A stretch of DNA of 64,000 bases from Iningainema tapete BLCC-T55 (GTDB lineage: Bacteria > Cyanobacteriota > Cyanobacteriia > Cyanobacteriales > Nostocaceae). Below the pieces are notes generated by a model, which worked only from the letters and a program-made list of their open reading frames with translations, made no database searches and was not told the DNA's origin. Numbering within the stretch: the first letter of the stretch is position 1; each line of letters starts with the position of its first letter. Location of the stretch: positions 1 to 64,000 of the forward strand of contig NZ_JACXAE010000040.1 in the NCBI RefSeq assembly GCF_014698965.1, read 5' to 3'. The position numbers were made by a program, and so were the translations under genes. This document shows, one piece after another, positions 185-57,823 of this stretch.

Positions 185-1438
185 ATGACTACTGCCCCCG
201 ATGACTTGAAGGCTATCTTAGACCGTATTGCAATCGGTATCCACACCGAAACCGATCTCGCCACTCTAAGGACGCTAATCGTCAGTGGCGATCGCAATGT
301 GGTGCAGTTAGGGAAGTACAACCTCAATATTACCGAGGGACGGGATATTCAGGTTGGCGATCGCATTTATCAAGGACCGGATGCTGAAGCAATCAAGGCT
401 ATCTTTTGTCAGGTACTAGACGAGTACAACAGCAGAAAAAATATAGAAGTAGAGGATAAAAAGTCTTGCTATCTTTACCAAACCGTATACAGCACATTAC
501 TTCCAGTCTCGGAAATGCCTCGCTACATCTACGGAGTCAAATGTCAATACAATGATTTACAAACACAAGAAGCAGCTCAAGAAATTATTTATCCTACAAT
601 TAGCCAAGGTGAAATGTATCCTTTCCTCTTACGAGGAGGAATGCTTTTCTGCTTTCAGAATCTTAAAAACCCAAAAAGTCCTTTTCGACAGCTTGTAGAC
701 AATCAGAAAGTTAAGCGTTATGAAGTAAGCGAGTGGTGCGAAGAGCCAGAATTACGGCAGTGGTTTATAACTTTGCTCAACCGCTCTCTAAATAAACTTA
801 CTGGTCGCAAGGGTCTCTATTTAGATAAAATACACCACCGCTACTACTTTCAGTCTAAGGAATTGGGGCAAACTTTAGAGGTTAGCTATTGTCCTCTCAA
901 TAAATCAACTACAAGTAGAAAAGTAGTATGGCAACCCATCATTAAGAAAACAGGTCAACCCAGACCCTATTGGTTTCACCTAGCAGTTGCTTTGAAATTT
1001 CATGAAGTGGGATCTCAACAATGGTGTTTAAGCATTCGTCCCGAGATGCGTGTGACAAAAGATGGTGTAAATCTCATTGACTCCGATAAAATTGGCAGGC
1101 AAGTTACACGCAAAAAATCCAGAATATTTAACTATGACCTCCTAGAGGATGTTAACTTTTGGAGGTATTTTCTCAGTGACGGACAACCACGTATCATTTT
1201 TCCATTTGAAAAAGGACAAAGGATTATAGTTTCAAGCACAATGATGCAAGGAGAAATTGAATGGCCTGGTATTCCTGAAGAGTATGCCAAGCCCTTCAAG
1301 AACGTAGAGTATCCAGAAGACCTCTTCAGTTTGGCTGCTTTAGCAAACCTTAAAAATGATGATTTATCAGAGGTCGATAATTGGGAAGATTGGGATAGCG
1401 ATGAGGACGAGGAGCAGGAGGAGGAAGATGAGTTTTGA
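185..1438 (+). CDS. Short-pAgo partner protein: N-terminal effector-associated (EAD-like) adaptor segment plus APAZ-like region
   Basis: N-term GDRNVVQLGKYNLNITEGRDIQVGDRIYQGPDAEAIKAIF resembles effector-associated adaptor segments of cyanobacterial STAND/TIR/caspase-like proteins; C-terminal ~350 aa (WCLSIRPEMRVTKDG, VNFWRYFLSDGQPRIIFPF, EIEWPGIPEE) looks APAZ-like; overlaps the start of the downstream PIWI gene. Confidence 0.7.
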   Translation: MTTAPDDLKAILDRIAIGIHTETDLATLRTLIVSGDRNVVQLGKYNLNITEGRDIQVGDRIYQGPDAEAIKAIFCQVLDEYNSRKNIEVEDKKSCYLYQTVYSTLLPVSEMPRYIYGVKCQYNDLQTQEAAQEIIYPTISQGEMYPFLLRGGMLFCFQNLKNPKSPFRQLVDNQKVKRYEVSEWCEEPELRQWFITLLNRSLNKLTGRKGLYLDKIHHRYYFQSKELGQTLEVSYCPLNKSTTSRKVVWQPIIKKTGQPRPYWFHLAVALKFHEVGSQQWCLSIRPEMRVTKDGVNLIDSDKIGRQVTRKKSRIFNYDLLEDVNFWRYFLSDGQPRIIFPFEKGQRIIVSSTMMQGEIEWPGIPEEYAKPFKNVEYPEDLFSLAALANLKNDDLSEVDNWEDWDSDEDEEQEEEDEF

Positions 1439-2855
1439 CCGAAATATTGATATTCCCAAAATTAGTTGTCAGTATCTAGAAGAGCCTTTGATCTGCTTTG
1501 CTAATGGTCAACAACATATCGACCCAAAGTTTGGGATCTCACAATTTGGTCCTAAATCGTATAGCCCGATTAAGCGCCACCCCTCTCAAGTGCGTGTTGG
1601 ATTCATCGGGTCTGCGGAAACAATTGAAGTTGCAAAGCAATGGATGGAAAAGAGCGCCCAAGGAGTTTTAGGCGACCAAAAGCACCCTGATTTTCCTGGG
1701 TTTAAAAAAGAGCAGGGCTTTTTTTCTGAATTAGTGTTTGATAATGATTGGATTAGTCAGCTAAATCGCTTAGAAATTGAAAATGTATTGAAAATTAAAC
1801 AGTCACGTAACCGTTTTGAAGCTGTTGTTCAACTTTTGGAAAGTAAGTTAAATCTGTTATCAAGAAAAGACCAACCGCCTGAATATATCGTTGTTGTTCT
1901 CCCTGACCAACTTATTAAAAAATGTCGGGTAGCTAACTATCAAGATTCAGATTTAGGAGAAATTCACAGGGATTTGCGCCGAGCGTTTAAATCTGTCGCA
2001 ATGAAATATCGCATACCTACTCAGCTTTTGGATCTGGAAACAGTGGATGGACGTGATAAGGATCATCTCTCAAAAAAAGCTTGGAATTTTTTCACAGGTC
2101 TGTATTTTAAAGCTGGTGGTTTACCTTGGGGACCTATAGGGTTAGTGCCTGGAACTTGTTATGTTGGTGTGAGTTTCTACCGTCCATTAGGCTCTGCTAA
2201 TTCTACTATGCAGACAAGCCTTGTGCAAGCTTTTGATGAACATGGTAATAATCTTATATTGAGAGGGCATGATTTTACCTGGGACTCAAATAAAGAGGGT
2301 ACTAATTCGCCCCATCTTACTGAAGAGCAAGCGGCAAAGCTTGTGGAACTCGTTTTGAATCGATATTTAGAAGAAATGGGACAGATGCCGAGACGTGTAG
2401 TTATCCACAAGACATCACGTTATTGGTCGGCGGAAAAAAGTGGATTTGAACAAGCATTACGAGCAAAATTTGTGCATCAATATGACTTGGTTGCATTGAC
2501 TTCTCAAAATACAGTGAGGTTGCTTATAGCCAATCAATATCCTCCCTTACGAGGAACTCGTTTCACCGTAGGAGAAATTGATTATCTGTACACAACTGGT
2601 TTCATTGCTGGTTTAAACCAATTTCATGGAATGCATGTTCCTTCGCCACTTCAAATTGCCGACCATGTAGGTTATGATACACCACGGGAAACATTGCTCA
2701 AAGAAATTCTCATTCTTACCAAAATGAATTGGAATTCATCACGCTTAGGCGGGTTGTTGCCAATAACAATCAGATTTTCAAGACTGGTCGGAGATATTAT
2801 GCGAGAGATTCCGGTTGATAGAGAGCCGCTGACTAATTTCAAGTTTTATACGTAA
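1428..2855 (+). CDS. Short prokaryotic Argonaute (MID-PIWI), predicted catalytically inactive
   Basis: The 1356 ORF most likely starts at ATG 1428 (preceded by GGAGGAAG), overlapping the upstream stop. PIWI-like KAGGLPWGP, YVGVSFYR, VVIHKTSRYWSAEKSGFEQAL, C-term LPITIRFSRLVGDIMREIP. DEDX catalytic Asp positions look substituted. Confidence 0.88.
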   Translation: MSFDRNIDIPKISCQYLEEPLICFANGQQHIDPKFGISQFGPKSYSPIKRHPSQVRVGFIGSAETIEVAKQWMEKSAQGVLGDQKHPDFPGFKKEQGFFSELVFDNDWISQLNRLEIENVLKIKQSRNRFEAVVQLLESKLNLLSRKDQPPEYIVVVLPDQLIKKCRVANYQDSDLGEIHRDLRRAFKSVAMKYRIPTQLLDLETVDGRDKDHLSKKAWNFFTGLYFKAGGLPWGPIGLVPGTCYVGVSFYRPLGSANSTMQTSLVQAFDEHGNNLILRGHDFTWDSNKEGTNSPHLTEEQAAKLVELVLNRYLEEMGQMPRRVVIHKTSRYWSAEKSGFEQALRAKFVHQYDLVALTSQNTVRLLIANQYPPLRGTRFTVGEIDYLYTTGFIAGLNQFHGMHVPSPLQIADHVGYDTPRETLLKEILILTKMNWNSSRLGGLLPITIRFSRLVGDIMREIPVDREPLTNFKFYT

Positions 2856-3443: not shown

Positions 3444-6400
3444 TCAAATTCTTCTCATGTTGTAAATCGTTTCTTTAGTGACAATCATATACCAATTATG
3501 ACTTTTGTGTTGCAGGCAAGCGTAAGCTTTTAACTGGTTTTTAAATGACTTGCTTTGTAAGACTTCTTTTAAAAACCATTCAGACATATTAACTGCTAAA
3601 TCATTTAAATTATTTAATGGTATTAAATCACGTTTCGTACACAAGAAAATTTTACTAAAACTCCCAAAGTAACGCTGAAATTTACTCGTTAATGTTACCA
3701 TTTGTGTTTCTAATGACTTTTGCACTTTTTGGCTAGGACAAATAATCAGCAGGTCATAATTACCATCAAGGGACTTGAAAAACTCCACTTTGCATATTTT
3801 GATAAAGGAACGAGTCGGGTAGCGAAGTGTACGAATGAAATCGGTTATTATGGTATCTAAGTTTTGACCAGTTTGTTCTAAGCTAAGAATAGTCGGCGGT
3901 TCTGAGGACTCAGTCTGATTACTTATAGTGCCATCGGGCATAATTGTAGCAATCAAGTTGGCTTCCTGAAGGTTAGCTCCATCCAAGTTTGCACCAGTCA
4001 AGTTGGCTTCCCGAAGGTTAGCTCCTCTCAAGTCAGCATCTTGGAAACTAGCTCTCATTAAATTGGCTTTCGACAGGTTAGCTTTTTGTAAGTTTGCACC
4101 AGTCAAGTTGGCTTCCCGAAGGTTGGCTTTACTAAGATCAGATTCCCTCAATTCTGCTTTTTCTAAACTGGCTTGATACAAGCTAGCCAACTTCAAATTT
4201 GCTCTACTGAGATTGGCTCCATTTAAGTTTGCCTTCCACAGTGTGGCTTTACTTAGATTCGTCTCACTCAGATTGGTTCCACTTAGGTTAACACCATGAA
4301 AAATTCGTTCTCCAGCGGCGTACCGTGTCAAAAGCTCTTTAGCTATCATCCTATTTTGAATTTCATCCAGCCTAGCTTCTTTACTTTTTTCTCCAGCCTT
4401 TGAACTTACGACTAAATCAATAGCGTCTACATCCTCATTTTGATTGTCATTAGTAACAAAACTAATTGTTTCACCTGTGCCTGTGTTAGCTTCTTGAACG
4501 TTAACTCGGTTGAATGTAACGCTGTTTGAGTTGTCTTCATCTAATTTGTTAGCGCTTGGTTTAGCTACTCTCTGAACTTGGTTAAACTCTAGCTCTACTG
4601 GTGTATTATGTCCAAAAATAGATAGTATAGCCTTAAGCTTACTATGCTCAATACTAACTTCCATCACCTCTCCTTCAAAATCTTTAAACGGACCTGAAAT
4701 TACTACAATTTTGTTTTCTACGGCTATTTTCAAAATCCATTCAGTCTGTGCAGATCTTAGTGGTTTTGTACGAACCCCTTCTATTTGCCGTCCATAGTGA
4801 TTCTTCCTTTCTACTGAGACATGATCTACACAGATCATTTCTGGTGGAACATACCTGACTGATTCTAGTACCGTCTGAATTTTCTGCATCAGCATTTCTA
4901 GATATGGTTTTATCAAATCCGCGTCAGTACCAGTATCAAGGTGAATCACCCAAGACGTATGCCGCCCAGAACCCAACACTTTAAAAGACTGCACAATATC
5001 ACAGCCGTAAAAGAGCTTAATACTTTCACAAACAAAATCTTTCCACTGCTCTAAACTCCCAATTTGTTTTGGTATTGATAAATCAGAAAATGACTTATCT
5101 TTTTTCATTTCAGGGACTATCTCTTTTGGTTTCTGTTCTTCGTTGTTGATTTCTACACGCTGATAATTAGCTGGCTGGTTAGAATTTTCGGAAGGTAAAA
5201 AGTACCCATTATAACTAATATTATACTGCTCTTTAACTAACAACTTATCAACACAAGCATTATAATGTTGCTTAAACAGTTCATAGCTATAGTAAATAGT
5301 TTTCCAATAACGGTCTTTTCGAGTAAACTCAACTTGTAATGCCTGCTCCAAGGCACGAGGACCAAGGTCATCATTAACAAACTTTTGAGCCAGTTCATCT
5401 AAATCGTGATTCTTTCGCTCCTCAAAGAAAAAGAAAGGTGGTTTTTCACCTTCATTTTGAGAAACATGGCGGGCAATATGAAATAAATTTCTTAAAAGAT
5501 TTTCATTTGTCCATTCGCCTATTACCTCTGCCGTGATATCTTGATCATAAAAAGTTTCAATACACAATTCCCTAATTATTTGATATTTGTCATCAAACTG
5601 GATGTCGATTTCAACAAAATCTTGACTATGATTAGAAGCAATTTTTTCAATAAATCTTTCATAAGCTTCTTTTTCACCTTCAAATACCATCACTAACTCT
5701 GCCATTATCCTGTCATCTTCACTTCCTTCAATAACAGTCTCAAACTCAACTTTATACCAACCAAGAGGAAGTAAAGTCAAAAACGGACCAGTAATTGTAT
5801 CGATACTTCTATCCATTTGCTGGGCTAATCGCCGGACTAAATCTGCCAATATTATGCAGGGTGATGTTGGGTTGTTTTCAGAAGCATCATCATAAGCAAG
5901 ACCAGGCAAAATTTGAGCATATCCTGCCCATTTAATTTCATATTGCCAAATATCAATAAAGGCGACTATATAAGCTTTTTCCGTTCCTCCCATACGGGGT
6001 CCACGCAGTGCCCTTCCTACCATCTGAGTCAGCAGAATCTCACTTTTAGTTTCCCTTGTTATAAAGACAGTCTGAACATCAGGAACATCAGTTCCTTCAG
6101 TTAACATTTTGATGTTAATTAATACATCCAACTCATTACGACGAAAAGCATCTAAAACACGGGCATTTTCGTTTCTATTTCGTATTCTCTCTTTTTCAGA
6201 ACTTTTGACGCCAGAATAAACGACACCAGCACGTATACCTCGATTTTCTAAAAACTCACGCAGTTGCTCACACTGAAACCAGCGGTCAGCAAACATAATC
6301 GTTTTACCATACCGCTCTTTGTTAGTTGCATAAGTTTCTGCAATAAAAGCATTGCGATCTCGATTCTCTGCAAGTTGGCTAATTATATCTTCTGGTAAAT

Positions 6401-7178
6401 CTTGGTAACTTTTAATCCATTTTTTATACTCGTCTTCCTCAAATTCAGGAACCTCAAAGTTAGTTTGATGTTGTTCAATCTCTGGCTTAGAAAGGATACC
6501 GTCAGCCATGAGTCGCTGGGCAGTTACCTGGTAAATAATTCGCTGAGGAAAAAGCTTTTCAAGCCAACCAAACCTACATTTGTATGTGTAGGTTGGAGTT
6601 GCAGTTAGCCCTAATAAGTACATCTTAGGAAAACGCTGCTGCATGGCGAGGATTAACTGGCGATAAGTCGGAGATGGGGAGTGGTGCGCTTCGTCAAAAA
6701 CAACGAAAAGTTTATCGTTTGCTGATTTGAGAAATGCTTCTAGCTTAGGTTGTTTACGTTTGTAAGCGCGAGTAAGTGTTTGAAGTGTAGCAATCAGAAC
6801 GTCATCCCTGAGTTCAATTTCCTCAACGGAGCAGTGTCCGGGTGTACCAGAAACCACTCGCACATCAAGCCTAGTTTTGGGTAAAGATATGTGCTTGACT
6901 TCTGATTCAAAAGTGTGAAATGCTTGCTCTAGCAAATGGTGAGTATGAGCCAACCACAAAACTTTGTAGCCTCTGGAAAGCGGACTGGTGCAAAGAAAAC
7001 GTATAGTAGTGAAAGTCTTACCCCCTCCGGTTGGTAAAACAAGAATGCTACCAGAATGCACATCGCGTTGCTCGTTGAACCACTCATGCAACGTTTCCAA
7101 CGCTTCTAGCTGGTGGGCTGTGGGTATTTTGTCTGATATTTGCTTACGATAGAGTCGTATATTATAAAGCTTATACAT
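3444..7178 (-). CDS. DEAD/DEAH (SF2) helicase fused to a NusG-type KOW domain and pentapeptide repeats
   Basis: LPTGGGKTF, DEAHHSPSPTYR, TATPTYTYK, QMVGRALRGPR helicase motifs; KIVVISGPFKDFEGEVMEVSIEHSKLKAILSIFGHNTPVELEFNQVQRV matches the NusG KOW pattern; A(N/D)LxxANL pentapeptide array. Confidence 0.88.
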   Translation of the reverse strand: MYKLYNIRLYRKQISDKIPTAHQLEALETLHEWFNEQRDVHSGSILVLPTGGGKTFTTIRFLCTSPLSRGYKVLWLAHTHHLLEQAFHTFESEVKHISLPKTRLDVRVVSGTPGHCSVEEIELRDDVLIATLQTLTRAYKRKQPKLEAFLKSANDKLFVVFDEAHHSPSPTYRQLILAMQQRFPKMYLLGLTATPTYTYKCRFGWLEKLFPQRIIYQVTAQRLMADGILSKPEIEQHQTNFEVPEFEEDEYKKWIKSYQDLPEDIISQLAENRDRNAFIAETYATNKERYGKTIMFADRWFQCEQLREFLENRGIRAGVVYSGVKSSEKERIRNRNENARVLDAFRRNELDVLINIKMLTEGTDVPDVQTVFITRETKSEILLTQMVGRALRGPRMGGTEKAYIVAFIDIWQYEIKWAGYAQILPGLAYDDASENNPTSPCIILADLVRRLAQQMDRSIDTITGPFLTLLPLGWYKVEFETVIEGSEDDRIMAELVMVFEGEKEAYERFIEKIASNHSQDFVEIDIQFDDKYQIIRELCIETFYDQDITAEVIGEWTNENLLRNLFHIARHVSQNEGEKPPFFFFEERKNHDLDELAQKFVNDDLGPRALEQALQVEFTRKDRYWKTIYYSYELFKQHYNACVDKLLVKEQYNISYNGYFLPSENSNQPANYQRVEINNEEQKPKEIVPEMKKDKSFSDLSIPKQIGSLEQWKDFVCESIKLFYGCDIVQSFKVLGSGRHTSWVIHLDTGTDADLIKPYLEMLMQKIQTVLESVRYVPPEMICVDHVSVERKNHYGRQIEGVRTKPLRSAQTEWILKIAVENKIVVISGPFKDFEGEVMEVSIEHSKLKAILSIFGHNTPVELEFNQVQRVAKPSANKLDEDNSNSVTFNRVNVQEANTGTGETISFVTNDNQNEDVDAIDLVVSSKAGEKSKEARLDEIQNRMIAKELLTRYAAGERIFHGVNLSGTNLSETNLSKATLWKANLNGANLSRANLKLASLYQASLEKAELRESDLSKANLREANLTGANLQKANLSKANLMRASFQDADLRGANLREANLTGANLDGANLQEANLIATIMPDGTISNQTESSEPPTILSLEQTGQNLDTIITDFIRTLRYPTRSFIKICKVEFFKSLDGNYDLLIICPSQKVQKSLETQMVTLTSKFQRYFGSFSKIFLCTKRDLIPLNNLNDLAVNMSEWFLKEVLQSKSFKNQLKAYACLQHKSHNWYMIVTKETIYNMRRI

Positions 7179-25987: not shown

Positions 25988-28900
25988 TTAGCCTATAATA
26001 TCGTAATCGCAAAGGTGCTTGTCGCTCTCACTAACCTCAGAGTTTGTCTTTAGATAGTCGCTCACTTGATTACAACCGCGCCGCACTAAATCGTCTAAAT
26101 CAAAATTCAATAGTAATAACCCTTGTCGATTAACTAAAGCAAGCGTCTTCTCATTAAGGTTAAAGGCATAAGAAAAAGAATAATCCTTGCTATCATAAGT
26201 TCCAACTTCTGCTTTGTCCATGAAAATATCCCAGAATTTCAAACTGTCATAACCTTGAGAAATAATAGTTTTACCATCAGGGCTGAAATAAACCTTGTAA
26301 ACGTTATCTTTATGTCCTCTAAGGGTAAGAATTTTTTTGCCCGTCGCGATATCCCATAGTCTCACCGTACTGTCACGATTAGCAAAAGCGATCGTCTTAC
26401 TGTCGGGACTAAAGCTGATGTCATTAACCAAATTGAAATTTTCTTTAATAGTTTTAATTTCTTCACCAGTCTTGATATTCCACAATTGCACTGTTCTGTC
26501 TGTGGCTTTATCATCAGAACTGAAAGCAGCAATCAGCTTACTGTTAGGACTGAAAATAACGTTCTTTGACCAATCCGAATGCCCTTTGAAGGATTTGAGT
26601 TGTTTACCAGTTGTAATATCCCACAATACAATACCTTGAGGTGTTGCAGCAGCAATCATCTTGCCGTCTTTACTAAAGCTGGCGCTATGTGCAACGGGGA
26701 AACTTACCTTGAGAGTTTTGGTTTCTCTGCTCGTTGAAATATCCCGCCATCTCACGATACCGTCCCAGTTTACAGTAACAATCGTCTTGCCATCATCGCT
26801 GAAACTGAAATCACCAGTCTTCAAGATTTCCCCGTTGTAGAAGTCTGATTCTCTACCTGTTGAGGCTTCCCAAAGTTCCGTTGTACCATCAAGATTTTTA
26901 GCAAAAATCTTTTTACCGCCTTTGTCGGCAAACCCTACCCTAATAATTTTGTGAGAATATCCTGACAGGAGCTTGAGTTCCTTACCACTAGAGACATTCC
27001 ACAGTCTCACCTTATCGTCAGCACCAGCAGTAACAATTGTCTTGCCGTCAGGGCTGAAGTTGACGCTAGTCATCTCGCCTGAGTGACTTTCAAGAGTTTT
27101 GATTTCCCTACCACTGGCGAGATCCCATAATCTTACTGTACCGTCAGCACTAGCGGTAGCAATTGTCTTGGCATCAGGGCTGAGATTGACATCATTTACC
27201 CAATTTGAATGCCCTTTGAGTGTTCTGATGTCTCTGCCATTCATGCTATCTTGCAGAGTTACTGTACCGTCAGCACTGGCAGAAGCAATCATTTGGCTGT
27301 TAAGACTGAACATGATGTTATTAACATCTTTTCGGAAATCATGCTCTCTAGGGAGATTGAGTACTCTACCCGTCGAAACATCCCACAGTTTTGTCGTGCC
27401 ATCACGATACGTAGCAGCAAGTATCTTGCTGTCAGGGCTAAAGTGGATGCTATTAACTTTAGTTAACAGATCCCCTTGGATAAGAGTCTTGATTTCTCTG
27501 CCTGTCGAAACATCCCATAAATTCACCGAATTTTTAATAAGAAAGTTGTAAGGCACAGCTGTACGAGTGTCTGCATTACTAGCAGCAAGCGTCTTGCCGT
27601 CAGGGCTAAAGCTAACATCTAACGCCTCTAAATGTCCTTGGAGGATTTTGAGTGTTTTACCAGTCGCAATATCCCATATTCTTACTGTATTATCAGAACT
27701 GGCAGACGCAAGTGTTTTGCGGTCGGGGCTGAAGGTAATATTATTAACTACACTTAAGTGTCCTTGGAGAGTTTGAAGTTCCCTTCCTGTTGAAACATCC
27801 CACAGTTTCACATAGCCTTTACCGATAAATTTGTCCTTGCTGTTAGAGTTTGGATTCAATTTTCTTTCAGAGTTATCAGTGGTAGCAATTGTCTTACTAT
27901 CAGGGCTGAAAGTAGGATTACCACTAGAGAGCGTTTTAACTTCTCTACCAGCAGTGATATCCCACAGTTTTGTTTTGTCATTGTCAGCAAAAGCGATCAC
28001 CTTACTATTTGGACTGAATTGGAAGCCATAATTACGAAATTTAAAGGTAAAAGTTTTAAGTTCTGTACCAGTTAAAATATCCCAAAGTGTTAGCGTATTT
28101 ATAGAACTTTCAGCAATAGTCTTGCCATCGGGGCTGAAGCTGACACTTTCAACTTCACCGGAATGACTTTTAAGGGTCTTGAGTTCTCTGCCAGTCATAA
28201 CATCCCATACTATTACTGTACCGTCGAGATTCCCAGCAACAATTGTCTTACCGTCAGGGCTAAAGTTGATGGAACTTACTTCACTTAAATGCCCTTTGAA
28301 AGTCTTGATTTCTTCGCCAGTAGTGCGGTCCCACAGTTTGACATCACTCATACTACCAGAAGCAATGGTCTTGCCATCGGGGCTGAATCGGACATCACCC
28401 ACCCAGTCTAAATCACCTTTTAGGTTTTTGAGTTTTCTGCTAGTAGTGCGTTCCCATAGTCTTACCGTGCCGTCATAAGTGGTACAAACGATTTTCTTAC
28501 CGTCAGGGCTTGAGCCCACAACACCCTTCAGAGAAGAGGAGAAACATTCAGGAATTTTAATTTCTTCTATCTGTTTATATCCTCCATACACTGCCCTTTG
28601 CAACGTATTTAAAACCTGAATGCGCGTACCTGCTTCTACCCACCCTGCTCGTTGCACTTCCCTTCCTGCTTTGATAGCGTTTATCAGGGCATTGTTCTGT
28701 TGATTTAATAAAGCATCTTTCTCTTCCTTTGACGGAAGCTTTTCACTGTATTTAAGCGCGTACTCCAAAGTACTTGCTCTCTCTTTATACAAAGCCGAAA
28801 GTGCTTTTGATGACGAAGCAAGAGCGCGGATTCGAGCATTAGTCTCAGCTACATTTGCACGCCACCAACCTACACCAGCGATCCCAGCTAACAACAATGC

Positions 28901-30586
28901 TCCTACTAAACCGCTAGTAAGCCCTGCAATTACTCTTTGTCTTTGACGCTCTTGCTGTTCGCGCTCTTTTTTCTGTAATGCCAAGCTAGTTTGAATGTAT
29001 TCCTGCTCTGCTGTCAACTCTTCTGGACGCTTTTGTAACCATTCTTGAGCATCAGCCAAGGGCTTACCACGCAACAATGCTGCCTCATCCCTACTAGTAG
29101 CATCCCACTGCTGCATTGCTGCCCGTAGTCTTTCTTGCCAAGCACGAAAGCTGCGGTCTGTTTCCATCCATTGCCGCAGCTTACCCCAATTACGAATCAG
29201 TGCTTCATGGACAACTTCTACTGTCTCTTGATCAGCAGAATTGCGGCTTGTAACTACTAATCGTGCATTAGCTATTTCTGTGACCAATGCCCAGCTTGTT
29301 TCACCCAATTCCGCTTTTGTTGCCAACCTGAGCGTATCTTCTGTTCCCTCTCCCGGACGCACCAATTGAATAAAAATCCGCCGCACCTGTTCTTGCTCAG
29401 TCGCACTCAGCTTATCATAAATCTCATCTGCATAGCGGGCTAGAGCGCCTTGCACATTATCAATTGCATCATAAACTGTATGAGTTATTTGTTTACCCGT
29501 TCGCTGTTGCCACAATAGCGTCAAGGCAAACTCCAGCAGAGGTAAATTTCCCGGCTTATCCTCTACATCATCTAAGATGCGTTCCACTAGTCCCGCTTCA
29601 AAGGTGATCCCTAATATTTCAGCAGGCTTTACAATCACCTGTGAAAGTTCGGAGTGGTTCATCGACCTGATTTTGATATCAGTATTCTGCAACACATCTC
29701 CAAAAGGAGGATAAGATAAAGCATTTCCCAAAAAATCTGCCCGCATTGTTGCAATTAACACAGGAGGAGATTGGAAACCGGAAGAAGATTGAAAGGCATC
29801 TAATAAAGTGTCTAAGAAACTAGTGCGGGTTTTTTCATCGTTGCACAGAGTGTAAAGTTCTTCAAATTGGTCAGCAATTAACAGCACTCGATGATTGGGA
29901 TGCTGACGTCGAATATGGGAAAATATACCAGAAAGTGTCACCTTATCATCGTGAAAATATTTAGCTAATACTCGTGCTTGGGCTATCTGCACGGTAGCAT
30001 CACCAGATGTGTACAAAGGAACTAGGGACTCAGCCAAAGCTTGAAAGGGGTCTGAACCAGGGCGAAAGTGAGTAAACAGCCAGCAACCTTGTTGTTGTAA
30101 CTTTGGTATCAATCCTGCCAACACCACTGAAGATTTCCCGCTTCCCGATGCACCTAGTACAGGAATAAAGTTACGCTTTACAGTCGCTTGAATCAGTTCT
30201 TCGATAAAGACATCGCGTCCGAAGAAGAATTCGGCATCATTGGGACCAAAATGAAATAAACCTCGATAAGGACATGGAAGATTATCATCAGTATTGGTGT
30301 CAGCTGACGTAACTGGTGCTACCTTAATATCTTCACGATAATAATAGTTTGTAATATTAATTACAGCATTTCCTTCCCCCGTGTTAGCGACGTATTGTGC
30401 TTTTTTAATAGTTTGCTCAACAATTCTTTTATTGTCTTGAATCTGAGTATTGTTATTACCTTGATTACTCTGCATACCTCCTTTTATTGTTGATTGTTCA
30501 ACATTTTGTTGAATACCTTGATGAGGAGGTAGTAAAGAATTTTCTTCTGATGAAGGTACTTTATTCATGGCTTTTTTTCCGCACAT
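25988..30586 (-). CDS. nSTAND1-type NTPase with C-terminal WD40 repeats and N-terminal amyloid-like motif
   Basis: CPYRGLFHFGPNDAEFFFGRDVFIEELI, GASGSGKSSVVLAGLIPKL; many FSPDGKTIA...VRLWD repeats; N-term GIQQNVEQSTIKGGMQSNQGNNNTQIQDN. Confidence 0.92.
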   Translation of the reverse strand: MCGKKAMNKVPSSEENSLLPPHQGIQQNVEQSTIKGGMQSNQGNNNTQIQDNKRIVEQTIKKAQYVANTGEGNAVINITNYYYREDIKVAPVTSADTNTDDNLPCPYRGLFHFGPNDAEFFFGRDVFIEELIQATVKRNFIPVLGASGSGKSSVVLAGLIPKLQQQGCWLFTHFRPGSDPFQALAESLVPLYTSGDATVQIAQARVLAKYFHDDKVTLSGIFSHIRRQHPNHRVLLIADQFEELYTLCNDEKTRTSFLDTLLDAFQSSSGFQSPPVLIATMRADFLGNALSYPPFGDVLQNTDIKIRSMNHSELSQVIVKPAEILGITFEAGLVERILDDVEDKPGNLPLLEFALTLLWQQRTGKQITHTVYDAIDNVQGALARYADEIYDKLSATEQEQVRRIFIQLVRPGEGTEDTLRLATKAELGETSWALVTEIANARLVVTSRNSADQETVEVVHEALIRNWGKLRQWMETDRSFRAWQERLRAAMQQWDATSRDEAALLRGKPLADAQEWLQKRPEELTAEQEYIQTSLALQKKEREQQERQRQRVIAGLTSGLVGALLLAGIAGVGWWRANVAETNARIRALASSSKALSALYKERASTLEYALKYSEKLPSKEEKDALLNQQNNALINAIKAGREVQRAGWVEAGTRIQVLNTLQRAVYGGYKQIEEIKIPECFSSSLKGVVGSSPDGKKIVCTTYDGTVRLWERTTSRKLKNLKGDLDWVGDVRFSPDGKTIASGSMSDVKLWDRTTGEEIKTFKGHLSEVSSINFSPDGKTIVAGNLDGTVIVWDVMTGRELKTLKSHSGEVESVSFSPDGKTIAESSINTLTLWDILTGTELKTFTFKFRNYGFQFSPNSKVIAFADNDKTKLWDITAGREVKTLSSGNPTFSPDSKTIATTDNSERKLNPNSNSKDKFIGKGYVKLWDVSTGRELQTLQGHLSVVNNITFSPDRKTLASASSDNTVRIWDIATGKTLKILQGHLEALDVSFSPDGKTLAASNADTRTAVPYNFLIKNSVNLWDVSTGREIKTLIQGDLLTKVNSIHFSPDSKILAATYRDGTTKLWDVSTGRVLNLPREHDFRKDVNNIMFSLNSQMIASASADGTVTLQDSMNGRDIRTLKGHSNWVNDVNLSPDAKTIATASADGTVRLWDLASGREIKTLESHSGEMTSVNFSPDGKTIVTAGADDKVRLWNVSSGKELKLLSGYSHKIIRVGFADKGGKKIFAKNLDGTTELWEASTGRESDFYNGEILKTGDFSFSDDGKTIVTVNWDGIVRWRDISTSRETKTLKVSFPVAHSASFSKDGKMIAAATPQGIVLWDITTGKQLKSFKGHSDWSKNVIFSPNSKLIAAFSSDDKATDRTVQLWNIKTGEEIKTIKENFNLVNDISFSPDSKTIAFANRDSTVRLWDIATGKKILTLRGHKDNVYKVYFSPDGKTIISQGYDSLKFWDIFMDKAEVGTYDSKDYSFSYAFNLNEKTLALVNRQGLLLLNFDLDDLVRRGCNQVSDYLKTNSEVSESDKHLCDYDIIG

Positions 30587-30662
30587 CCATTAAAAAAATT
30601 AGCAATGCGACTCAAAAGTATAATTATGACAAAATTAGTTAATACTTTTTTAAGTAAAATTG

Positions 30663-31673
30663 TTACTTTCGCAAATTATTTTTGTGCCAATCCTCTAAAG
30701 CAGTGATAGTAAAATCTGCTGCTGGATGATTGAGCAACTGTTTGAAAGTGAAAATACTTCCGTCTTTTAATGCACTAGTTATTTTTTGCATCAAAATCGG
30801 GTTATTTTCAAAACATTTAATAGCTTCTGTAGCTATGGTCATTTTCCCAAGAGTTGTGTCAGTGGGATAAGTTTGGCTTAGCTGTTCTAGCAATTGCTGA
30901 ATTTCTGCTACAGCTTCGGCGAGAGTTTGTTTTTGTTCTTGTGAAGCATAAGTGTTTGAAATTTGCTGATTATTATTACCTTGGGCTGCCTGCATCCCAC
31001 CATGCACATAACCACCGCTAACATTTTGAGAAATTCCCCCCATATGTTTGGGCTGCGAGTTTTGTTCTTCTGGAGTAGTTATTTTGGGGTCTGTCTCTTT
31101 TACAGGGACAGAGGGACGCTTTCTAGCTTTGAGTATAGGGGTTTGTGATTCTGGAATTCCTTGTAAGTCAATCAATGCACAGCCGAATTCAAAACAATCT
31201 TCGTAGGATTTGTTAACACCAAGTGCATTGTAGAATCCAATAGCAAACTTAATTGCCGCTTTATCACCTATCGTCTGATTCATACCAATTACATAATCTA
31301 TGTGTTGGTGAATCGCTTGAGCTTGAGCCTCACTATAGCAGGCATTGAGGAAAACACATTCAATTTGTTTTTGAAACAATCCAAATAATCTTGCTAGTGA
31401 TTCTGTACTCACTAACTGCATTTGCCCAGAATTGTTCTCTAAAACTAAGCCATGACTTCCAGCGCCATGTCCAGAAAAGTGAACAATCGTCGGTTGGTGG
31501 TCTAACAGTGCCCGGTGTAAGTCGTCAACTCTTAGTGCTAACTCAGTCACTATTTCAAACTCAGAGCGATTTTTGGCTTGTCTGAGTGCTGTCTGAATTT
31601 CCCGTACCTCTTCGTCCAAACGCAGCTTGTCTGTGTTTTTAGGGTTTGCTGATAAAATTAAAATTTTTTTCAC
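30663..31673 (-). CDS. CHAT-domain caspase-like protease with C-terminal amyloid-like motif
   Basis: IVHFSGHGAGSHGLVLE (His) and CVFLNACYSEAQAQAI (Cys); followed by GGISQNVSGGYVHGGMQAAQGNNNQQISNT. Confidence 0.9.
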   Translation of the reverse strand: MKKILILSANPKNTDKLRLDEEVREIQTALRQAKNRSEFEIVTELALRVDDLHRALLDHQPTIVHFSGHGAGSHGLVLENNSGQMQLVSTESLARLFGLFQKQIECVFLNACYSEAQAQAIHQHIDYVIGMNQTIGDKAAIKFAIGFYNALGVNKSYEDCFEFGCALIDLQGIPESQTPILKARKRPSVPVKETDPKITTPEEQNSQPKHMGGISQNVSGGYVHGGMQAAQGNNNQQISNTYASQEQKQTLAEAVAEIQQLLEQLSQTYPTDTTLGKMTIATEAIKCFENNPILMQKITSALKDGSIFTFKQLLNHPAADFTITALEDWHKNNLRK

Positions 31674-32215: not shown

Positions 32216-35200
32216 TTACTGAGATGAATCGAATTCCACTGCCCCCAACGCTTTGAGGGTTGCTCTTTGGGCTGCGGTCAAACCAATCGCACCAGTAATA
32301 TTCATCCCTTCATAAGGTCTATTTGCTCTTAGGGTTTTGAGACATTGTCCAGTATCCATATTCCAAAGCTTTATAGTCTCATCTTTGCTACCTGAAGCTA
32401 ACATTTGTCCATTTGGACTAAAAGCAACTGACCATACTACCTTTTGATGTCCCTCAAATGTTCTCAAATTTACCCCTGTACTGCTATCCCAAAGCTTGAG
32501 TGTTTGGTCGTCGCTACAGCTAACTAATTTTTGACCATCTGGACTAAACACAACTGACCTGACTCGATTGCTATGTCCAGTCAAAGTTTGCAGGCATTCC
32601 CCTGTAGAGATATCCCACAATTTGATTGTGCGATCGCCGCTACCACTGACAAGCAATCTACTACAAGGGCTAAAAGCTACCCACAGTACCCAATCTTCAT
32701 GTCCTTTCAAAGTTTCCAGACAAGCGCCTTCTGCAACATTCCAAAGTTTGATGGTTTGGTCATCACTGCCACTTGCTAGGATACTTTTTTGGGGACTAAA
32801 AGCCACTGACTTAACTCTATGGGTATGTCCATACAACGTGTGTAAACACTCCCCAGTACGCCAATCCCAAAGCTTTACTGTTTGGTCGCGACTACCACTT
32901 GCCAAAATTTGACCATCTGGGCTAAAATTTACAGATTGTACCCAATCACCGTGTCCCCACAAAGTTCCTACACATTCACCAGTAAAGGTGTCCCAAAGCT
33001 TAATGGTTTTGTCGTCGCTACCACTTGCCAAAATCGAATGTAATGGTTCACTAGCAGCCATATTTGGAGCAAATACAACTGATGAAACAATGTTTGTATG
33101 CCCTTGCAATGTTCTTAGGCAGTAACCTGTAGATACATTCCACAATCTAATTTGGTAGTCTTCACTGCCACTTGCCAAGATTTGACCATCCGAACTAAAG
33201 GCAACAGAGGATACCCAATTGCTATAAGCTTTTAGCGTTTTCAAGCATTGCCCAGTATGAAAATCCCATAATTTTACTGTTTTGTCATTACTTGCACTTA
33301 TCAATGTTTGCCCATCTGGACTTAAAACGACTAACCAAACCCTTTCGGTATGTTCCTGTAAGGTTTGTAGACATTCTCCTGTTGAGACATTCCAGATTTT
33401 TACTGTTTTATCTTCACCTGCTGTTGCCAATACCTGACCATCCGCATTAAAGGCAACTGCCCACACAAAATTGCTGTAATTAAGTAGTGTTTTGACACGT
33501 TCTCCCGTCTGTATATTCCATAGCTTAACTGTGTTACCCTCGCTAGCAACTGCTAGTGTCTGTCCATCCGGACTTAAGGCTACAGACAGTATCCAATTGA
33601 TCCCAATCGCCAAAAGCCGCAAGCACTTTCCATCACTAATATTCCACAGCCTAACGGTTTGGTCTTCGCCACTACTAACTAAAGTTTGTTCATTTAATGA
33701 ACTAAATGCAACAAAAAGTACCCGTCCTGTATGTCCTTTAAGAGTTTTGAGACATTGCCCAGTATGAATATCCCATAATTTTATTGTTTGGTCGTTACTG
33801 CCACTTGCCAGAATTTGACCATCTGGGCTAAAAGCAACTGATTGCACCCAACTGGTGTGACCCCGCAGTGTTTTTAAACACTGCCCTGTATGGGCATTCC
33901 ATAACCTAATCGTTTGGTCATTACTGCCACTTGCCAGAATTTGACCATCTGGGCTAAAAGCAACGGATACCACCCACGCTATGTGTCCTTTGTAATAAAT
34001 AAGTTGTTGGCTATCTGCAATTTGCCACAAACAAATTTCGTTATCAGTTCCTGTTGCTAACAGCTTTCCATCTGGACTAAAGGCAGCTGATAAAATACCT
34101 GCATTAGTTTGAGTAAAAACTGATTTAGTTAAATCTGAGTTTGTAAAGTTGACTTGATGTAAGTTCATGCCTTGTAAGTAGGCTTGCCAGATGGTTAAGT
34201 TAGAAAAATCATAACCGCTGACATTGACTTGAAGCTGCCAAAGTAGATTGAGAATATTTCCGCCTGCATATCCAGGTTTTCGAGATGTCAAAACTTGCAG
34301 GTTCGACAACAACTGATTTAGGTGGTTTTCGACATTTGTAAATTGAGCCAGCAATCTATCAGCAATAGGCTTGAGAATCAGGCGAATTTGAGCATTTCTC
34401 AGGTAATCTTTACTGGTAGCCTTTATCAAGGCATGGGTATGAAACAGCGCAATTTCTCCGGTGGTTAATTCTTGATTCACTTCGTCGATAAATCTATCAA
34501 TCACATACTCCATTACCACCGACTGTTGAGTAAATTTTGCTCTCGTATTTTCAATCAGGGAACGATGTTGTAAAGATTCTAAAGCTTCCAATAAAGTCTT
34601 TTGATGAAGAGGTGGAACAATATCTTCTCGTAATTGGGAGAGCGAAACCCACTCTCGATTAATCGCCAACCAATGCATAATTTGCCGTTCTAAAATCGAC
34701 AGGCGATTAAACTGCTGCTCTAGTAAGTCGGAAATGTCACCAAAAATAACGATACCTTGTTCTAGAAATTGAGAAATATCACCCTGAAATAATTCTTGAA
34801 TAGTCGTCGCTACAATCTTTAACGCTAGAGGATTTCCTGCATAATGTTCTATTAATGCTCGACTTTTGTTTTCTGATATAGCAAAACCTTTTTCTTTGAG
34901 AATGAAATAACCTTCTTCCTGCTGTAATCCGCTTAATTTCAATGAACGAACAGGCAGATGTCTTCCTTCTTTGGAACTAAGTCCTTTGGGTTTTTCTCTG
35001 CTAGTCAACAATAAACAGCTCTGATGGCTGCTCTGACCTACACATCTAAGCAGTTGCCCGTATTCCTCATATCCTGGACAATAGGCTCCGGAGGTTTTGT
35101 CAGTACATAAAATTGATTCCGCATTATCCAGTATGAGAAAGCAGCGTTTTTCACCTAGATGCTTAAGCAACTCGGCTATTTTACCATCTACAGTCTCTGG

Positions 35201-35755
35201 CAAATTCGTTTCTTGCTGTTGAGACACAAAGCAAATTAATTCTACCAAAAGCTCCTGAACTGGTGGAGCGTTACGCAGGCTTCGCCAAATCAAATAATCA
35301 AAATTGTCCTGCACTAGCTGTGCCACTTTCACAGATAAAGCCGTCTTGCCAATGCCACCCATCCCAATTACAGTGACGAGTCGGCATTGCTCATTCACAA
35401 TCCATTGTTCTAAAGTCGCAAGTTCTTCAGTACGCCCGTAAAACACCGAGACATCAATCGCCTCTCCCCAGTCCTGGTGAATACTTTTAGTTTTTCTCTC
35501 GCCATTTTGATCTATAGCTACTGATGGAGCCTCAAAATCCAAATCAGCGATGTCTCTCCAACAGAGCGCTAATTTCTGACAAAGTTCTTCAAAAGTCGCA
35601 TGATCCACGGGTTTCCCTGTCAGGAAGTTGCTAACTGTGGCTAAAGCCAGTCCTGCCTCCTCAGACAAAGTTCTTTGGCTGGGAAAGCCATTACGCTTAA
35701 CTGCCAATTTAACTTTCTCAATGCAATCACGACGAACTTTGAGCGATCTAGGCAT
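32216..35755 (-). CDS. HTH-NB-ARC (STAND) protein with C-terminal WD40 propeller(s)
   Basis: N-term HTH-like [42 protein letters not shown]-loop; [33 protein letters not shown]; long [30 protein letters not shown] array. Confidence 0.92.
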
Positions 35756-43491: not shown

Positions 43492-46400
43492 TTAACGTGT
43501 AATAAGTTGGTCGTTTGTCTTCGTTTTTAAAGGTTCGGGTTCATTTGAATTTGACTCTCGACCAATATGTGAGAACCCTTTACCCTCTTTCACCGCTGGG
43601 ATATATTCTTGGGTGAAATGTTTTAATCCTTGAAGTTTGCCTTTGAGAGTAGGCGGGTATTTTGCCATGATGCGATCGCGGGCTTCGCGTTCGTTTTGGT
43701 TATTGGCAATGGAAGCTAACATCATCTCGCCAGGGTAAAATCTGGTTCGCCAGAAGCGTCCGCCTCTTTCAATCAGCCAGCAGGAGTAGAGGTCAGCAGC
43801 TCTGGGCAGGAAAGCTTCAGTGGCATTTCGACTGATAATATTAGGGTCGTAACCCAGGTGACGTTGGAAAGATGCTACGCCGTTTGCTGTGATGCGCCCG
43901 GTGATTCTGTAGACCATGTTTTGCATGATCTGCGAACCTGTAGCACACTGGCAGATAGTGTCGGGGTCTTGACTTAACAACAAGACAGAAATTCCATCTT
44001 TTCTCCCAGTTGCACAGAGTTCTCCTACGATTTGGGCGAAACCGTCACGACGCAGCAAAACTGAAAGTTCATCTCCAATGAACAAACTTCTTGGATGTGA
44101 AAGTGCATTTCGGATGCAAGCAGTGTGAGCGTTAATTGCCATCAAGTAAGCATCTTGTTCATTTGACAGTCCACTGAGGGCAAAGAATTTAACTGCTGGC
44201 TCAGGTGAGAAGGTGCTTGGTCTACCGATAGCTTTCCCCAAGCGGGAAGCTAATAGAGCATTTCCTTGGCTGAGAATTTGGTTGATGGCTTGTTTGTCCA
44301 ATTCTTCAAAGGACTTGAGGTCGAGTCTTTCTTTACTGCAAAAACGCAGTAGATCCTTGAGTGTAGGGATTTGCTGCCATTCAGGAGACTGCCAACCTTT
44401 CTCGAACGCTTGGTTATAGCGGGCAATGATCTCCGGATCTCTAAGGAACATATCTAGCATTTTGAGTACGATCGCATCAACCCGTTGAGCTAAGTGCGGG
44501 TTGTGGACTTTTCCAAGTGCGATCGCCACCATTGCTTTGCGAATAAACTCTTTCCAAGATTCCATTCGCCGTTCTCTTTCCGGCTTATCAAACTTTCGCA
44601 AGTCGGGGGGTTCTACCAGATTGCTTGAACCCGCCGAAATGTCATAGTATGCGCCTTGCTCACCCAAAAGTTCAATAGCTGTTTTGAACGTACTATTGCC
44701 ACCACTGCTGATATCCATTCCAACGACCGGGATATTGTTAGCGAGTGCTTCTACTGCAAAACGCCATCCCAAAACACTCTTACCTGAACCAGATTCTCCA
44801 GTAATCAAAGCGCGACTGATTTGGTCGTGAAATAAGTCGATAAAAATTGGCTTGCCTCCCCGGTCTGTGACAAATTCAACTCCTCTTTTATCTATGTCCT
44901 TTGGAACAGTTAAAGGCAGAATTCCAGTAACAGTTTCTGTGTCTAAAGTTAGTCGTCGTTCGCTGAAAAGTGAACCACTATGTAGCAGCCATTTCCAAGT
45001 TATCGGCAGACACTGCAACCAAATATCCCAAGCGATATTTCGCTCTCGGATAACTTTAGCTGTTCCAAAGCTATTACTAAGGACATTACAGGCATTGTTT
45101 AATTCAAGAGAGTCATTGCGGTAAACTAGGAAAGCCACAGCACAATGCAGTGCTTTTGCACCTTTATAAAGTCTTCGTTGTGCATCGAAGGATTCTTCTT
45201 GTTTGATTTCAGCTCCAATGTCGCGCCCTTGTCCCTTGGTTATCGCCCTAGTACTTGCTGCTTTAGATTGTTTGGCTTGACGAGCCAAGTTATCGTTAAT
45301 GATAAAGTTGTTTCCGGCGCTGATTTCAATCCATGCTTCGGTGTCGTGGACGTAGCTAGAACTCATCACTTCCCAAATCCATTTTAGTTGCTGCCTTGTA
45401 TTGATCCAACCTGTTGGTGACTCATACATAGTCAACACACCACATTCTTTGCCTTTGCCATTGAGATAGACACGGTTGTGGCTTAAGCGATGTTCTGGAC
45501 ATGAAGACCTACCTTCTTCTCCCTCAATCAAGACAGTACAAGTATGCTTTTGCGTGGTTTTGGTTTCAGTCAGTTTGAAGCCGGATGACGTTTCTTCTAG
45601 TGTTAGTATTTGTGGAATTGGTGGAGCGTCACCGCTGTTAAATCGTTTCCAAAGCCATTGCCAAAGCTCTGCTGTATTGCAAGGAGTAATTTCCAGCCCC
45701 ATTTTGGTGTTTAGCAGTAATTCCCAGCGGATGAAACCTTCATCAAATCCTTTGAGAAACAGCTTTGTATAAAACTGTTCTTTATAGAGCCGTGTGTTAC
45801 CACTAATGGAACCAAGTAACGAGTCCCCAAGATTTTTTACACCGTCAATTACCTTACCAAGAAAGTCTCTAGATTGCTGTTCGGCTTGGGCATCCGCTGT
45901 CCAAGTACAGAAGGCAATTTGTTCCCAGATTTGGCGTGTACCTTTCTGGGTTAACTGTTGAAGTCGGCGCTGCTCATTCCTAATTAGGATGGAAATCGGC
46001 TTCAGATGGGTATTGTCTGCTAATTGAGTGAGTTCTTTTTGGCGATCGCCGTCATCGCTGTAGCAACCTGTACAAAAAGTAATCTTTTCGCCGTTTGGAA
46101 TGTCTTTCATCCCTTCTTCAATAGAGGAAGCAAATTCCGAAACCTCACTTTGGAAAAGTAAATTGTGAAGTCCTTTGGTGTTAAAACCAAATACCAATTG
46201 GTATTGTGAACCATTATTGAGAAGCATTCCAGCGGCTTCTCGACCTTCTTTTTTGATTTCAACTAGGCAACAGATATGTGTTTCATCTTGAAAGGGCATA
46301 AACTTGCTCTTGCCTCCTTGTTGATTCGGTACAATTTTTGGCTTGAGCTTTGCTCGAAAAAGTTGCGAGTTCTTGTGCTGCTTTAAAGCCTGTTGGCGAT

Positions 46401-46710
46401 TATAGTGTGAAAGTGGAGAAATATAGAGAGAGTTGCCGTTATACCATTCGTCTCCTGGGGGTTTTCGGAACTTATCTGTAAAATGGTGTGGCTGACTACC
46501 AGTTAAGAGCCACCAGCTGACGATTAGCCAAAACGAAACAGCAAAGAACCACCCCAAACCTAAACTAAAAAGTCCATTTGTGAAAATATAGGAAACGACG
46601 AGAATTGCACACCAAGGTCCTATTTGGTTGGCAGGGATTGGACCGACACTTGCCTGTTTACCTAAAATTTTATTAACACGAATAAAATCTTTTTCTGGAT
46701 CTCGTAGCAT
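43492..46710 (-). CDS. T4SS ATPase VirB4/TraC-like
   Basis: ISRALITGESGSGKSVLGWRFAVEAL Walker A, SLFIGDELSVLLRRDG Walker B, LLLSQDPDTICQCATG. Confidence 0.85.
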   Translation of the reverse strand: MLRDPEKDFIRVNKILGKQASVGPIPANQIGPWCAILVVSYIFTNGLFSLGLGWFFAVSFWLIVSWWLLTGSQPHHFTDKFRKPPGDEWYNGNSLYISPLSHYNRQQALKQHKNSQLFRAKLKPKIVPNQQGGKSKFMPFQDETHICCLVEIKKEGREAAGMLLNNGSQYQLVFGFNTKGLHNLLFQSEVSEFASSIEEGMKDIPNGEKITFCTGCYSDDGDRQKELTQLADNTHLKPISILIRNEQRRLQQLTQKGTRQIWEQIAFCTWTADAQAEQQSRDFLGKVIDGVKNLGDSLLGSISGNTRLYKEQFYTKLFLKGFDEGFIRWELLLNTKMGLEITPCNTAELWQWLWKRFNSGDAPPIPQILTLEETSSGFKLTETKTTQKHTCTVLIEGEEGRSSCPEHRLSHNRVYLNGKGKECGVLTMYESPTGWINTRQQLKWIWEVMSSSYVHDTEAWIEISAGNNFIINDNLARQAKQSKAASTRAITKGQGRDIGAEIKQEESFDAQRRLYKGAKALHCAVAFLVYRNDSLELNNACNVLSNSFGTAKVIRERNIAWDIWLQCLPITWKWLLHSGSLFSERRLTLDTETVTGILPLTVPKDIDKRGVEFVTDRGGKPIFIDLFHDQISRALITGESGSGKSVLGWRFAVEALANNIPVVGMDISSGGNSTFKTAIELLGEQGAYYDISAGSSNLVEPPDLRKFDKPERERRMESWKEFIRKAMVAIALGKVHNPHLAQRVDAIVLKMLDMFLRDPEIIARYNQAFEKGWQSPEWQQIPTLKDLLRFCSKERLDLKSFEELDKQAINQILSQGNALLASRLGKAIGRPSTFSPEPAVKFFALSGLSNEQDAYLMAINAHTACIRNALSHPRSLFIGDELSVLLRRDGFAQIVGELCATGRKDGISVLLLSQDPDTICQCATGSQIMQNMVYRITGRITANGVASFQRHLGYDPNIISRNATEAFLPRAADLYSCWLIERGGRFWRTRFYPGEMMLASIANNQNEREARDRIMAKYPPTLKGKLQGLKHFTQEYIPAVKEGKGFSHIGRESNSNEPEPLKTKTNDQLITR

Positions 46711-49737: not shown

Positions 49738-50151
49738 CTATCCCATACCTCCGCAGCTATCCTGCTGTTCAATTCTTTGTTGAAGAACCTTGCCTTTCAA
49801 CTCCAAGTGGTACTCGGCTAACTGCCTGCCGAACTCCCGCAATATTTCATAGTTTTGTTTGGGCATTTGTCCAGCTGCTAACGCTCTTTGGGCGAACAGG
49901 GCGAGGGAGTGCAGATGTGCGCTCATGCGCCGTAGTTCACGCGCTACCTCTTGATTAATTTCTGGCATCTCAGGACGAGGAGCAAACTCGAAAGCACGTT
50001 TGCGCAGATAATCAGATAAAGTTTTCTCGCCTGACTGCGCTGTTCGCTTTGCCAAATCCTCCTTTTCAACTTGGGTAACCCGCATTCGGACGACTTGTGT
50101 CCGATAGCAAGAATTTTGCGATTGCTCTTGTCTCTGTGTATTTTTTTGCAT
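49738..50151 (-). CDS. MobC-like relaxosome accessory protein
   Basis: MRVTQVEKEDLAKRTAQSGEKTLSDYLRKRAFE and REFGRQLAEYHLELKGKVLQQR resemble MobC-type RHH proteins. Confidence 0.65.
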   Translation of the reverse strand: MQKNTQRQEQSQNSCYRTQVVRMRVTQVEKEDLAKRTAQSGEKTLSDYLRKRAFEFAPRPEMPEINQEVARELRRMSAHLHSLALFAQRALAAGQMPKQNYEILREFGRQLAEYHLELKGKVLQQRIEQQDSCGGMG

Positions 50152-56830: not shown

Positions 56831-57823
56831 ATGACGAATATCCATCCAGAAAATATAAGCGTTCTAGAAAACTCGTTCGCCTTAGCCATAGGGGAAGACT
56901 TCACTCTAGAAAATGACCCAGATGTGGTGGAGCAGCTGATTGGGGATAAGCGATCGCCTAATACTAAGCGTGAGTACCAAAAAGACTTGCGAGACTTTTT
57001 TCTGTACAGTGCCAAAAAAGAACCCAGCAGGGATTTGGTTTTAGAGTTTCTTCACTTAGAGCAGCGTCACGCTGTTGCTCTGGTTTTCAAGTACAAAGCG
57101 CACCTAATTAAGAAAAAACTAGCAGAAGCGACAGTGAACCGCCGTCTTAGTGCTATCAAGTCAATGGTGGAGATGGGGCGACGGTTGGGGGTGTGCAATT
57201 TCTCCTTAGATGATGTGAAGGGGGAGAAAGTTGAAGTTTACCGCGATACTAAAGGCATTCCACCAACTGAATATGCCAAAGTCATCGCTCTAGTTGACCG
57301 CAACACTCTTAAAGGTAAGCGAGACTATGCAATTCTAAGGTTACTTTGGGATCTGGCATTGAGACGCAATGAAATAGTTAATTTAAATGTAGGTGACTTT
57401 AATGCCAAGGAGAAAACTCTAGCCATTCTGGGTAAGGGCAAAGGGACTCAAAAACAAGTCATTGATTTGTCGGAGAGAACTGTAGACGCTCTAGCCACTT
57501 GGTTGAAAGCTTGTAAGAAAAAACGTAACGATGATCCCATGTTTACGGTGCTTGCCTATCACAAAAACGGTGAACGAATAACTGGGGAGGCAATTAGGCG
57601 ATTGGTAGATGGACTTTGTAAGCAAGCTGGAATTACTAAAAAAATGTCACCGCATCGCATCCGCCACAGTGCGATTACAACTGTATTGGATCAGAACAAT
57701 GGTAACTACCGTGCTACCCAAAGATTTAGCCGACACGCTCAGGTGCAGACGGTGTTGAAATATGATGACAATCGTCAAAACTTACAGAAACAGATGAGTG
57801 ACAAGATATCGGATCTAATTTAG
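56831..57823 (+). CDS. Tyrosine recombinase (XerC/D-like integrase)
   Basis: LWDLALRRNEIVNL (Arg I), SPHRIRHSAITTVLD (HxxR), FSRHAQVQTVLKYDDNR (His, Tyr). Confidence 0.9.
   Translation: MTNIHPENISVLENSFALAIGEDFTLENDPDVVEQLIGDKRSPNTKREYQKDLRDFFLYSAKKEPSRDLVLEFLHLEQRHAVALVFKYKAHLIKKKLAEATVNRRLSAIKSMVEMGRRLGVCNFSLDDVKGEKVEVYRDTKGIPPTEYAKVIALVDRNTLKGKRDYAILRLLWDLALRRNEIVNLNVGDFNAKEKTLAILGKGKGTQKQVIDLSERTVDALATWLKACKKKRNDDPMFTVLAYHKNGERITGEAIRRLVDGLCKQAGITKKMSPHRIRHSAITTVLDQNNGNYRATQRFSRHAQVQTVLKYDDNRQNLQKQMSDKISDLI

Follow-up and report, generated by a model that had tools for sequence, protein, structure and literature searches.

A motif shared by a CHAT-family protein and an nSTAND1-WD40 receptor of Iningainema tapete is replaced as a matched pair in relatives

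Results

A CHAT-family gene and an nSTAND1-WD40 receptor gene lie side by side

The stretch of DNA analysed here (64,000 nucleotides of contig NZ_JACXAE010000040.1 of I. tapete BLCC-T55; hereafter the window) carries on its minus strand two co-directional ORFs separated by a 76 bp gap (30587..30662). The first, at 30663..31673, encodes the presumed effector, a caspase-like protease of the CHAT family (336 aa, GTG start; Pfam CHAT, 2.6e-11; PADLOC chat, 6.9e-20). Its catalytic domain (aa 1-185; 31119..31673) is modelled as an alpha/beta fold, mostly at 70-90 pLDDT, and His69 and Cys112 (full-length numbering) are invariant across 18 homologs. The protein thus combines the profile match with the catalytic His and Cys expected of a CHAT protease, and proteolysis may be predicted from its sequence. 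Mean pairwise identity of the catalytic domain is 68% among the CHAT homologs that bear the motif described below, and the nearest solved structure to the protein is the SAVED-CHAT filament 8tl0 (E 7.7e-11). Five helices are predicted with moderate confidence in the C-terminal domain (aa 245-336; 30666..30941), for which a Pfam search matched no family; pentapeptide proteins and short proteins likewise have a helical domain of this type after the motif. We dropped the naming of this domain from fold matches, because the best matches fall on the CHAT part and overall confidence in the AlphaFold models of the two proteins is low (mean pLDDT 65 and 70).

The second ORF (25988..30586) encodes a protein of 1532 aa with an nSTAND1 NTPase domain (Pfam, 7e-119; aa 106-501, 29084..30271) and a C-terminal WD40 propeller region (Pfam; 25991..28519), which is the presumed sensor and has diverged to about 41% identity to relatives. 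This combination of a STAND NTPase with a C-terminal repeat sensor is that of a STAND/NLR receptor. A second WD40 receptor-like gene lies upstream on the minus strand (32216-35755; 1179 aa); the N-terminal half of its product is P-loop NTPase-like, and the motif is absent.

The contig is plasmid-like, with a backbone of this kind spanning positions 36779-63667 of the window and including a VirB4/TraC-like ATPase (43492-46710; 70-79% identical to Nostocales and Oscillatoria plasmid proteins), a NikA-like mobilisation protein (49738-50151) and a tyrosine integrase (56831-57823). A megablast search of the receptor-protease operon against plasmids gave no match. Elsewhere in the window we noted a short prokaryotic Argonaute (185-2855, plus strand; PADLOC pAgo_I, 7e-145; PDB 9om4, 2.4e-156). 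The APAZ-like partner adjoining it has an N-terminal EAD10 (Pfam, 3.3e-27) in the place normally taken by SIR2, TIR or nuclease domains, suggesting that an effector is recruited in trans; the sole other EAD10 match in the genome is in a 1212-aa frame on contig C14. The minus strand also encodes an SF2 helicase that carries fused pentapeptide repeats and has PbeA-like matches in PADLOC (3444-7178), and a 1110-aa protein (60335-63667) whose weak Pfam match to PF05183 (cellular RNA-dependent RNA polymerase; 1.1e-4) falls under the curated cut-off.

The two proteins share a conserved, asymmetric motif

According to a first-pass annotation of the window, the adjacent CHAT and STAND-WD40 genes carry matching N/Q/G segments. 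Translation, the ORF list and Pfam bear this out, and exact minus-strand translation reproduced the peptides it had quoted at 30951-31040 and 30431-30517. The common N/Q/G motif comprises 30 residues. In the CHAT protein it is internal rather than terminal, flanked by the catalytic domain and the helical C-terminal domain (HMGGISQNVSGGYVHGGMQAAQGNNNQQISNT, aa 210-241 of 336; 30951..31046; profile match 3.6e-15), and in the receptor it lies near the N-terminus, ahead of the NTPase (HQGIQQNVEQSTIKGGMQSNQGNNNTQIQDNK, aa 22-53; 30428..30523; profile match 2.0e-13). Alignment of the CHAT tail with the receptor N-terminus scored 108, the highest score among 20,000 shuffles being 70. The motif segments alone scored 82 against a maximum of 61 for shuffles that preserved segment composition (p ≤ 5e-5), so the similarity is not a matter of shared low complexity. 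A motif profile built from 12 copies matched the 9.5-Mb genome only at these two places, which lie 0.4 kb apart, even at E ≤ 1.

The two copies are not symmetric: the effector form reads ISQxxSGG...GGMQAAQGNNNQQ and the receptor form xIQQxVENST..GGMQAAIGDDNIQIQ, and this difference holds in other genomes too. Among motif-bearing CHAT proteins the effector motif is 60% conserved, compared with 20% for the linker before it and 30% for the C-terminal domain after it; likewise, in 17 paired receptors the motif is 51% conserved and the preceding tail 30%. Individual Q, N and G positions are strongly conserved. No fold is predicted for the effector motif (pLDDT about 30), and residues 187-250 are unstructured in the AlphaFold model. 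A Pfam search of the motif returned no family, RHIM and EAD included, and the motif profile matched nothing among solved structures.

The motif recurs in linked gene pairs across the family

Within the family, the motif profile matched 48 of 218 genomes; among those sampled from the phylum it matched only 4 of 386. The regions examined held 123 motif-bearing ORFs, 91 of which have a second motif ORF within 3 kb, a count in which each pair enters twice and some contigs are incomplete. Eighty-six of these 91 lie on the same strand as their neighbour, with a median gap of 60 bp and the effector mostly upstream of the receptor. Carriers on the effector side are CHAT proteins, pentapeptide proteins and roughly 140-aa proteins made up of the motif plus helices; on the receptor side they are nSTAND1-WD40, NB-ARC-TPR and NACHT proteins, an iSTAND-like protein and a DctP-type solute-binding protein. 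The motif also pairs CHAT-free proteins, for example pentapeptide with NACHT and short-helical with DctP.

The DctP-like case was seen at locus L138 (3977-5284), where Pfam identifies a DctP-like solute-binding protein with the receptor-type motif at its N-terminus; six further proteins (L139, L149, L151, L153, L156 and L125) resemble it by sequence. These carriers always adjoin a roughly 141-aa protein with the effector motif and so form a recurrent pair without a STAND receptor, and the presence of the motif on such a protein is at odds with a simple immune role. Some carriers stand alone. No receptor adjoins the CHATs of a 12-row class-2 clade, and four NB-ARC-TPR-type proteins (L099, L114, L121 and L122) bear the receptor motif but lack a nearby partner in the regions examined; these partnerless carriers may act in trans.

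One position in CHAT proteins accommodates many matched adaptors

At least ten adaptor types occur in CHAT relatives at the position that follows the catalytic domain, namely seven motif classes (e.g. GGMQ, RSVSIGGNVTGSAIQTGD, TITQTAGDNAIMLGNFGQVGNINLQ, SGGIYFGDSATVQGDLVG and SGNYNERIQGDYVQGN) and three folded domains: TIR (L221), EAD9-like (L038) and, weakly, EAD7-like (L023). Each folded domain is matched downstream, which points to the same job as that of the motif. Across 26 non-redundant CHAT/downstream pairs, cognate partners scored 62.3 on average and non-cognate partners 28.7 (p ≤ 5e-5, class-free permutation). The adaptor of the downstream receptor matched in all 42 pairs that could be classed on both sides; as the class prototypes were drawn from the same data, this count is not blind and the permutation is the safer number.

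The catalytic-domain tree requires 17 changes of adaptor class, and the window protein and that of locus L008 are sisters with 99% support and have different adaptors. Other CHAT paralogs in the genome of the window bear a class-2 adaptor (L214), a class-4 adaptor (L236) and an unnamed helical one (L269), all of them matched downstream. This genome (G000) also encodes a single-chain CHAT-nSTAND1 fusion on contig C69 (82300-86500; L277); the reading frame appears to be broken 3′ of the fusion.

Both halves of the tag are replaced together in relatives

Comparison with L008, from a Nostoc indistinguendum MAG (L201 is the same region), located the replacement. The DNA is 86% identical over the CHAT domain (31675-31123) and over the NTPase (30355-28830), whereas the 767 bp between these blocks show 30-45% identity and encode another matched pair in L008. 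In two further loci, L216 and L208, identity is lost at these same boundaries (31115-31138 and 30355-30367). The NTPase of L216 is 91% identical to that of the window, and altogether the NTPase DNA is 86-91% identical to that of receptors with another motif. Because the flanks are kept while the block between them is replaced by a matched pair, both halves of the tag have been exchanged together. The exchanged adaptor cassette (30356..31122, minus strand) thus consists of the CHAT tail with motif and helical domain, the intergenic gap and the receptor N-terminus with its motif.

Judged from these alignments, a single recombination block would be the simplest account of the replacement. With the effector gene first and its tag near the 3′ end, and the receptor gene second and its tag near the 5′ end, both tag halves fall in one short block, so that a single recombination event can rewire the pair and preserve the match. 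Among the papers searched for exchange of motifs or cassettes in amyloid NLR systems, we found no report of block-wise exchange of matched tags, nor of motif-type and folded adaptors interchanging in one CHAT socket. The novel part is the concerted cassette exchange, CHAT-linked pairs with bacterial amyloid signalling sequences (BASS) having been reported already.

Discussion

A probable homotypic adaptor between receptor and protease

Family-wide linkage, cognate matching and concerted swapping make a role of the motif as a homotypic receptor-effector adaptor well supported at the sequence level. The joint replacement of both tags in relatives is a strong indication that the sensor switches the protease on through the tag. 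We therefore consider it very likely that receptor and CHAT protease form a switch wired by the motif, in which the receptor would cluster, the tags stack and CHAT become activated. Specifically, the WD40 part of the nSTAND1 protein may sense an invader or stress signal, upon which the NTPase would oligomerise. Clustering would expose the receptor copies of the motif, which could then recruit and order those of the CHAT protein. The motifs would stack, most likely in cross-beta (amyloid-type) form, and CHAT domains activated by proximity would cleave their targets, the probable outcome being a killed or disabled cell. The abortive-infection death switch predicted in the first-pass annotation may thus be the role of the pair.

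Relation to known signalling motifs

The first-pass annotation had taken the motif for a bacterial amyloid signalling motif of RHIM-like kind. The former part is supported in that a receptor-effector pair with a shared motif, an arrangement reported for bacterial amyloid signalling, occurs in a multicellular bacterium. The RHIM-like part is not supported: Pfam gave no RHIM match, and neither window copy was significantly similar to the verified RHIM-like BASS3 peptide (p = 0.16 and 0.27), so that we dropped a kinship of the window motif with RHIM/BASS3. The receptor copy of one relative gave p = 0.007 against that peptide, uncorrected for 18 tests. The window copies had no significant similarity to the Methanothrix and sigma peptides. 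In many receptor-side copies the motif resembles the amyloid-forming receptor-effector motifs RHIM, fungal PP and BASS3 in a Q..G.xN core (GMIAAIGDDNVQI compared with GVQVGDGNVQI). Unlike these, it has no uninterrupted [IV]QxG tetrad in the window, where the [IV]Q[IVLC]G core of RHIM is broken up (MQAAQG).

As far as Dyrka et al. (2020) is summarised in later papers (PMC7889193, PMC8086366), BASS have been reported for Bell-NLR pairs and less often for CHAT- or TIR-NLR pairs; their less frequent occurrence with CHAT domains is noted in PMC7889193. In the same accounts they resemble the present case in being N/Q/G-rich motifs of about 30 residues, located at the NLR N-terminus and in an adjacent effector gene of filamentous bacteria, and in forming several mutually exclusive families. 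We found the same placement here, on the receptor N-terminus and in the neighbouring effector gene, and pairing recurs across genomes of multicellular bacteria (48/218 genomes; 91/123 motif ORFs). The effector architecture differs. In Bell-type BASS effectors the motif is at the C-terminus of the helical domain, whereas in the window it is inside the CHAT protein with a helical domain after it. Apart from CHAT, the effector-side carriers are pentapeptide proteins or short proteins in which the motif comes first, and none of the carriers examined was a small Bell-type domain with a C-terminal motif. Concerted cassette exchange was not found described for BASS in these accounts.

The arrangement also follows the coupling principle of EADs, in which matched small non-enzymatic adaptors of interchangeable types sit on a core component and in an adjacent effector gene (Kaur et al., 2020; PMC7159879). 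Here, too, core component and neighbouring effector gene each hold an adaptor copy. EADs are folded domains, whereas the window motif has no predicted fold (pLDDT about 30) and matches no EAD profile in Pfam, and EAD-type domains do occupy the same CHAT slot elsewhere. Fungal HET-S/NWD2 and related pairs likewise consist of an adjacent NLR and effector with a common short motif, and templating there runs from receptor to effector; the fungal effector, however, is a membrane-targeting HeLo-type domain rather than a protease, and comparison with the sigma peptide showed no sequence relation. Assembly of SAVED-CHAT uses the SAVED domain of the same protein, not a receptor-borne motif. The window CHAT is of the same protease fold family as SAVED-CHAT, whose solved active form is a filament (PDB 8tl0).

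Amyloid templating and its alternatives

Verified bacterial signalling amyloids have the same layout (PMC7889193, PMC8086366), and an amyloid form is therefore the likeliest chemistry; by this analogy, templating between the receptor and CHAT motifs is somewhat probable. Generic amyloid predictors cannot settle the matter, as they score most non-amyloid NLR N-termini positive and do not separate such motifs (PMC8086366). The motif could instead be a homotypic adaptor that works without amyloid or prion-like templating, through soluble beta-arch pairing, a disordered N/Q/G condensate or finite oligomers. Folded non-amyloid adaptors (TIR, EAD-type) do pair in the same slot, and the motif itself is predicted to be disordered. 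We nevertheless regard this as a possibility of clearly lower probability, since the verified bacterial amyloid signalling peptides are alike in size, N/Q/G make-up and gene layout, and since position-specific conservation of Q, N and G would exceed what a condensate-forming segment usually needs.

Because the CHAT family consists of proteases and disorder is predicted for the stretch containing the motif, the motif might alternatively be a substrate or docking site, cut by CHAT in the receptor and in CHAT itself, so that sharing would reflect protease specificity rather than self-assembly. This is very unlikely: the close catalytic domains of the window and L008 (86%) bear unrelated motifs, CHAT-free proteins are paired by the motif as well, and TIR and EAD-type domains substitute for it. 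Least plausible is that the similarity arose without function when a low-complexity linker was duplicated locally or underwent gene conversion, for although the copies are low-complexity in composition and adjacent, this is largely refuted by a conservation far above that of the linker and by the joint replacement of both copies, and identical residues share the same codon at just 11 of 16 positions while effector and receptor forms remain distinct in many genomes.

Implications

With the homotypic adaptor as the preferred reading, it appears likely that cyanobacterial CHAT-STAND operons keep both adaptor halves in a sub-kilobase block and exchange them as matched sets, that amyloid-like motifs and TIR/EAD-type domains are interchangeable in this role, and that one genome may thereby run several insulated CHAT death switches. 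The conserved order of effector, then receptor, would have a simple evolutionary reason, namely that lock and key lie on one exchangeable block. Loci whose protease and NTPase modules are nearly identical but whose matched tags differ amount to natural swap experiments on receptor-effector fidelity. With them one can ask directly if specificity is set by the tag alone, and if an amyloid motif and a folded domain are functionally equivalent within one protein.
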